Assembly: GCA_947449695.1 (NCBI GenBank)
Contig: CANFST010000016.1
Coordinates: forward strand, 1 to 59,095
Reading direction: 5' to 3'
DNA from: Chitinophagales bacterium
Lineage (GTDB): Bacteria > Bacteroidota > Bacteroidia > Chitinophagales > CAIODY01
DNA length: 59,095 nucleotides
The notes below the pieces were generated by a model, which saw only the letters and a program-made list of their open reading frames with translations, was not told where the DNA came from and did not search any database. The position numbers and the translations under genes are program-made. Below are positions 57,882 through 59,095 of this stretch, piece by piece. The stretch's first letter is position 1. The number at the start of each line of letters is the position of its first letter.

Positions 57882-58773
57882 TCATTTCATTACTTTCTGT
57901 TGCCACAGTTTTTTCCCATTTTGGTCTTTTTGTTCAATGATGTAAATACTTTGTGGCAATGCACTCATATCTATTTCATTGGCTATGCTACTGTTGGCAA
58001 CATAAGGTTGCTGCACTATTATTTGACCCAATAAATTATACAATACCAATGTGGTATTGCTATTATTTGCTGCATTACACCACACTTCCAAGTGTTTGTT
58101 ATTCGCATTATAAAAAGCATTGTTACCACTTGGCAAATTAGGTTGTTCAACTTCTTCATAAATTGAGGATAAATTATCTACCCATTCTATCCCAGCTCTA
58201 TCAGGCGTAACACTCCAACCTTCAATAGCAATATATTGATAATTATCATCAGATACAAACTCAACTTTATAACGATGCCATACACTATCTAATGGTGGCG
58301 ATAACCAAGCTTCTTGATTATACTCACATAAATGCTTACCTAATAATATTTTTAACATCCCAATATCGCATTGTGTGCAGTATTTAAATCTAACCACACA
58401 AGCAGCATCTAAATAAAAATAATATTTTTTCCATTGCTGCAAAGTTCCATTCAATTGCACTCCTAATATCTTATTAAAAGAATCTAATCCTTGTGATACC
58501 GCCCCCCCCCCCAACGTTAATGCAATAAGTTCCATTAGTGGGACTTTGAGTAGTGGGAACAAAAGCATTTCCAAAATTTTCTCCAGTAATCCATGGGGTA
58601 GGAAAGTAACTGCAAATATGCCATGTGAAAAATTGGTCATTATTAATGTCCACGTTCTCAAAAGAAGAGTCTGGAATAGTAATTACACTTTGACAAAAAG
58701 AAGGCTGTAGGGTCGAAAGCAATATCAACAACCCTACAACCTTTACAAACAATATTTTCTTAATGCACCACAC
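57882..58773 (-). CDS. T9SS-sorted surface protein, out of frame at an 11-base G tract
   Basis: The 5' part starts at GTG 58773, has a signal peptide (IKKILFVKVVGLLILLSTLQPSFCQ) and runs through ITIPDSSFENVDINNDQFFTW to CINVGGGGG. It then leaves the frame at the G tract and stops after ITRIRFF. The 3' part, in another frame, continues from GGGAVSQGLDSFNKILGVQLNG through WSVTPDRAGIEWVDNLSSIYEE to a type A sorting tail (VWCNAANNSNTTLVLYNLLGQII to WQQKVMK). Ten or thirteen G would join them into one protein of about 296 residues. The mature part resembles a beta-sandwich surface domain. In the state shown, no intact protein can be made. Confidence 0.82.
58502..58512 (-). repeat. Poly-G tract (11 G on the coding strand), candidate phase-variation switch
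   Basis: Eleven consecutive C on the plus strand lie inside the coding region of the T9SS protein and coincide exactly with the point where the two halves change frame. It is the only G/C homopolymer of this length in an otherwise AT-rich window. Confidence 0.85.
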
Positions 58774-58873
58774 TTATTTATCGTAAATGTTAAGTTGCAT
58801 TAGTTGCCTCCGGGTTGCTGCATAGCTTTTCAGCATTGGGGTTTGGTAGCTGCTTGATTCAGTTAGGCTTTTC
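58774..58873 (-). promoter_or_regulatory. Long 5' leader of the poly-G T9SS gene
   Basis: From the predicted transcription start near 58873 to the GTG at 58773 the leader is about 100 bases. It can form a small hairpin (TGCTG and CAGCA arms around AAAAGCTATG) followed by AACCCGGAGGCAACT. No known riboswitch pattern was matched. The extra GC content relative to other leaders suggests structure, but this is not proven. Confidence 0.3.
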
Positions 58874-58879
58874 ATTTTT

Positions 58880-58911
58880 CAAATCTAAACCATTCTTTTC
58901 AATCAGGCAAA
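58880..58911 (-). promoter_or_regulatory. Promoter for the poly-G T9SS gene
   Basis: On the minus strand TTTG (58911-58908) and TAGATTTG (58887-58880) are separated by 20 bases, an exact match to the Bacteroidota -33/-7 layout. Confidence 0.6.
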
Positions 58912-59015
58912 TTCATAACGAAGCTTTGTAACAATTAAAATTGAGGTTCATTGATAATGGATTGGGGTAGATTTTTATTTACTTTTTTTCATTCCTTATC
59001 AGGAATTTAGAAAAA

Positions 59016-59090
59016 CTGGTTAGGTTTTCACAAAAACATCCTTGGTTTTGTCAATTTCTGGTTAGGTTTTTATAAAAGCTGGTTAAGTTT
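59016..59090 (+). repeat. Short direct repeats at the right edge (CTGGTTARGTTT)
   Basis: CTGGTTAGGTTTT occurs at 59016-59028 and 59058-59070, and CTGGTTAAGTTT at 59079-59090; the starts are 42 and 21 bases apart. A weaker match (CTTGGTTTTG) lies at 59041-59050. The series appears to continue past the window end. The rest of the intergenic stretch from 58912 shows no open reading frame. Confidence 0.55.
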
Positions 59091-59095
59091 CACAA

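Follow-up and report, generated by a model that had tools for sequence, protein, structure and literature searches.

A G tract dividing a T9SS cargo gene in a Chitinophagales genome: a candidate slipped-strand contingency locus

In the window (the whole 59,095-nucleotide stretch analysed, on contig C16 of the 3.14-Mb, 99-contig source genome G000), a gene for a T9SS cargo protein is split between two registers by a run of eleven Gs. It is probable, though well short of certain, that this gene is a slipped-strand translational contingency locus that was assembled in its OFF state. The gene product would be exported by Sec and sorted by the T9SS as a secreted or surface protein, and replication slippage would be the simplest source of switching, with the tract length shifting by one or a few Gs. 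The ON register would yield the full-length cargo with its sorting signal, and the other two registers (OFF) would lead to a stop 5-8 codons past the tract and thus to a truncated, unsorted fragment. We infer that slippage in living cells would proceed at a useful rate and be reversible, and that variation of the surface proteome would be its selected function.

The divided cargo gene and its G tract

The whole cargo gene, as delimited by alignment with a paralogue on contig C65, spans 57882..58773 of the minus strand. Its upstream reading frame (58474..58773, minus strand) has 99 codons from a GTG start at 58773, with 87 open codons up to the tract and a stop 8 codons past it. The frame opens with a probable signal peptide, VWCIKKILFVKVVGLLILLSTLQPSFCQ (58690..58773, minus strand), for which the cleavage site was placed by eye; the charged start, hydrophobic stretch and likely cleavage site, all recognised by eye, are common to the C65 paralogue. 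The tract itself, a putative slipped-strand switch, occupies 58502..58512 of the minus strand (eleven Cs on the plus strand, eleven Gs on the coding strand), and is followed by a second register with 205 open codons (57882..58501, minus strand) ending in a stop at 57882. Two of the three registers past the tract run into a stop within 8 codons. These results agree with the original prediction in the exact position of the tract, in the loss of register between signal-peptide half and sorting-domain half at that point, and in a joined protein of about 296 residues, the read-through of both halves giving 296.

The downstream half carries a T9SS type A C-terminal sorting domain (57900..58100, minus strand), with a PF18962 match of 28.1 bits (E 2.5e-6; curated cut-off 27) in this half and a TIGR04183 match of 26.6 bits (curated cut-off 23) on the read-through protein. 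The likely signal peptide together with a C-terminal sorting domain scoring over cut-off is the arrangement of T9SS type A cargo. The sorting domain is the sole recognised domain in the protein, and a profile search of solved structures gave no match. The structure model of the read-through protein had a mean pLDDT of 41, only helix 2-21 being confident, and since such a model was unusable no fold search was attempted. With the tract at its assembled length, translation would be expected to yield a fragment of 99 residues that lacks the sorting domain.

The C65 paralogue, an intact protein of 294 residues, shares 61% identity with the read-through; its gene has no G tract and reads GGTGGGGAT at the corresponding site. 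As both halves of the window gene align end to end with this one intact protein, they were formerly a single gene. In comparison with C65, pN is 0.24-0.26 and pS 0.6-0.7 in both halves. Seven distant homologues (E 1e-8 or better), six of which cover the site, have no G run longer than 4. Because neither C65 nor these homologues carry such a run, the tract and its frameshift are, by this comparison, derived and were gained in the window copy. Within the N-terminal domain, the tract sits in a linker that varies in length and joins two conserved segments, and for this reason extra glycines are probably tolerated there.

An intact paralogue in the same genome, and the fact that no orthologue of the window gene was found in the sister species G001 and G002, would also suit a fixed pseudogene: the window gene would be a redundant copy of the one on C65, with its frame lost recently and for good. 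We consider this improbable, as the 205 downstream codons contain no second lesion and a random lesion is unlikely to fall precisely in the longest G run of the window. A wider search found no close relative of the window gene among 398 genomes of the order, and a genome-collection scan with the window protein likewise returned no relative. The collections searched also yielded no second isolate of the species.

The length of the tract far exceeds what the composition of the window would produce. The next longest G or C run in the 59 kb is 6, G/C runs drop about seven-fold per extra base (P(G|GGG) 0.13), and none of 100 dinucleotide shuffles of the window yielded an 11-G run. The tract has two features of a slipped-strand (SSR) contingency locus, being a homopolymer of at least nine bases in or before an ORF and beyond chance, at which a change of length shifts the frame of an otherwise intact gene. 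An assembly or consensus error, with the true tract in frame in nearly all cells of an ordinary G-rich T9SS cargo gene, is unlikely but carries some weight: 11-base homopolymers are prone to stutter, the G000 assembly is fragmented, and the 205 downstream codons are wholly intact. However, some 580 bases separate the tract from the end of the contig, its flanks align to the paralogue, and even with its length one off it would lie far beyond chance.

The sequence between the gene and the contig end contains a small ORF of 33 codons (MKSLTESSSYQTPMLKSYAATRRQLMQLNIYDK; 58774..58875, minus strand), with a stop codon immediately before the GTG of the cargo gene. This ORF is kept in C65 and its frame is lost in the C58 and C10 copies of the surrounding repeat, so that a conserved leader peptide was dropped from consideration. 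The upstream dispersed repeat (58782..59095, minus strand) is common to C65 and C58 (92-93%) and partly to C5, C10 and C64, and is probably the reason why contigs C16 and C65 end there. The same or a related repeat also precedes other T9SS cargo genes (C65, C58 and C5), and on C10 it sits between cargo genes. A plasmid search found none. In Bacteroides, a member of the same phylum, phase variation of surface structures is brought about by invertible promoters; the window gene differs in having no strong or otherwise suitable inverted repeat pair around it, and DNA inversion was rejected.

G tracts across the source genome

Runs of at least nine Gs occur at nine loci in G000 (counting the ends of contigs C25 and C27 as one), compared with an expectation of 0.07-0.13, or 0.6 with a generous ratio, extrapolated from the run-length decay of the window itself. 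Four of the nine loci (C16, C17, C25/C27 and C86) encode a sorting domain. The tract gene on C79 resembles T9SS cargo in sequence (with an NPSFE-type start), and has a truncated tail and no domain match. With 7.6% of the length of G000 taken up by T9SS cargo ORFs, the binomial probability is about 0.003 for the strict count of four in nine (calculated by hand) and 2.5e-4 for five in nine. The genome has 133 T9SS sorting-domain matches over cut-off and encodes SprA (C5:30600-37715, 2498 bits), and hence the T9SS translocon is present.

The other tract genes encode a membrane-like protein (C11), a helix-turn-helix protein (C40) and the products of the C61 and C81 loci. On C40 (L042:2611-2621) the eleven Gs are in frame near the C-terminus of a small helix-turn-helix protein, which, if switched, could represent a regulator under phase control. 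Across the genus, tracts of exactly nine Gs are all in frame and longer runs are found in mixed states; some of the 9-G tracts may be plain poly-glycine, and GGG is a rare codon (7.4% of glycine codons). A lost mismatch repair system was rejected as an explanation of the tracts, MutS1 and MutL being intact in G000, and slippage rates may be modest because both proteins are present.

The C25/C27 locus calls for caution. Contig C27 ends in GTGGGA-G13-CC after PHSDSTIV (L041:3-15) and contig C25 begins with G23-CCCTCAAG (L040:1-23), and the two segments continue each other when judged against their homologues on C17 and G001:C20. The 23-G end of C25 is in frame and the 13-G end of C27 is out of frame. 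The open frame adjoining the tract in C25 is not the one that encodes the sorting domain, and this gene may carry a second lesion. It is tempting to regard C25 and C27 as one gene in which the assembler stopped at two tract lengths, but the evidence is only suggestive because some contigs of other genomes end in poly-G artefacts, and the two contig-end tracts could themselves be assembly artefacts.

Tracts in sister species and other families of the order

The most informative comparison involves the 489-residue T9SS cargo gene on G000:C86 and its orthologue G001:C57 (L048; 68% identity), which matches contig CAIODY010000057 of the metagenome-assembled genome Umea3p1_bin-1165. At one shared site each gene has GGA and then eleven Gs; the frame is kept across this tract in G000 and broken in G001. 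With pN of 0.20-0.23 and pS of 0.61-0.63 in both halves, the two halves are, by this measure, under purifying selection, and since pN is well below pS in each, the out-of-frame C57 gene has been maintained as protein-coding over most of the divergence. An out-of-frame copy with both halves under such selection is a further argument against the view of the window gene as a fixed pseudogene. At this site the closest homologues that lack a tract read N-G-x-G or similar. As synonymous sites are near saturation, the tract was either kept or gained twice; the chance of three GGG third positions staying G by drift is about 0.05 (by hand), which makes its shared presence supportive rather than decisive. 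In addition, G001:C20 (L047) has twelve Gs that split another T9SS cargo gene, so that both G001 tracts (11 and 12 Gs) split genes of this class, and G002:C446 has eleven Gs in frame in an intact gene. A comparison of tracts in relatives, suggested with the original prediction, thus provided no orthologue of the window gene and did provide opposite frame states at C86/C57.

Two further explanations bear on the tracts as a set. The first is productive frameshifting, in which the ribosome or RNA polymerase slips on the 11-G run so that some full-length protein is always made, the tract setting a level of expression and not acting as a heritable switch. A stretch of GGG, a rare codon, can slip, and the frame break does lie inside the G run. 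However, tract lengths and frame offsets vary among loci with no constant arrangement, the orthologues of the two species differ in whether they are in frame, and RNA polymerase slips less on G runs than on A or T runs; together these points make frameshifting of this kind very improbable. The second is neutral homopolymer drift, whereby G runs would expand in weakly constrained, glycine-rich loops of secreted proteins with no selected switch. The tracts do occur in length-tolerant, glycine-coding loops, and secreted proteins evolve fast. We nevertheless give this explanation a low probability, as the steep decay of other G/C runs leaves no room for a general bias, runs of at least nine are absent from several complete genomes of the order, and orthologues share the tract site at a pS of about 0.6.

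Outside the genus, tracts also occur in G017, a genome of another family, in which paralogous secreted proteins have 9-11 Gs inside the signal peptide (L207-L214). In one set, MKKL...IFN-G(n)-NALYAQG, the tract of L210 (10 Gs) is in frame, and those of L207 (9 Gs) and L209 (11 Gs) are out of frame. In a second set (L208 and L213, ...LALHIWGGGNVLMGQ) the tracts of 10 Gs are in frame, the frame of L213 being assigned by its MKKL start. By analogy, this is the layout of a classical translational switch, and L207-L214 are likely to be a phase-variable set. Tracts of 13-14 Gs were also identified in or just before secreted-protein genes of G032, from a further family (L218, L219 and L224), those in two genes being in frame.

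In G040 and G028, contigs end in long G/C junk (L110, L111 and L120). This junk apparently stems from assembly and swells the poly-G counts of public genomes, and it lends some support to an assembly error in the window as well. Poly-G counts from G040, G028 and part of G017 were dropped as evidence, the tracts there being contig-end junk of this type. Against an assembly error stand the out-of-frame tracts at two loci of G001 and in G017. The alternative of a sequencing or assembly error, raised together with the original prediction, therefore keeps some force for the window copy and is weakened by the recurrence of out-of-frame tracts in the genus and in another family. The predicted phase switch, in turn, is partly supported: the great excess of tracts in the genome, their enrichment in T9SS cargo genes and the opposite frame states of an orthologous pair provide strong, though indirect, evidence for it.

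Relation to known systems and biological meaning

Campylobacter, Neisseria and Helicobacter have well-described contingency genes with poly-G tracts (PMC8355987, PMC3786947, PMC2823697). The loci described here resemble them in having tracts of at least nine Gs within ORFs of surface proteins, with out-of-frame lengths that truncate the product, and in the presence of several loci per genome in mixed ON and OFF states. They differ in their setting, a Bacteroidota-type genome with MutS and MutL and T9SS cargo as the target, and in that switching is putative here. Mononucleotide repeats were previously proposed to mediate phase variation in Akkermansia muciniphila (PMC3048395), another case of G repeats outside the classical pathogens that was deduced from a genome alone; that bacterium is a commensal of another phylum, the genes concerned are capsule genes, and no comparison of ON and OFF orthologues was made (PMC3048395). 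Repeat-based phase variation in general is covered by a systematic survey of frame transitions (PMC3711429). No paper on homopolymer-switched or phase-variable T9SS cargo was found in the open-access literature searched. The mechanism is known, and its T9SS-cargo setting appears to be undescribed in that literature.

The case is about evenly balanced for a broader proposal, namely that poly-G slippage serves the Bacteroidota of this order as a general and undescribed contingency system for proteins exported by the T9SS. In each genome a set of cargo genes would be turned ON or OFF independently of each other, by a tract in the first domain (in the genus) or in the signal peptide of a paralogous family (in G017). 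If this is true, uncultured and probably free-living Bacteroidota would vary the display or release of T9SS cargo by a random frame switch identical in kind to the one pathogens direct against immunity, and pressure from phages or grazers could explain such a switch outside a host. Frameshifted T9SS cargo genes in assemblies would then not be errors or pseudogenes by default, and the tract lengths in the underlying reads would matter.
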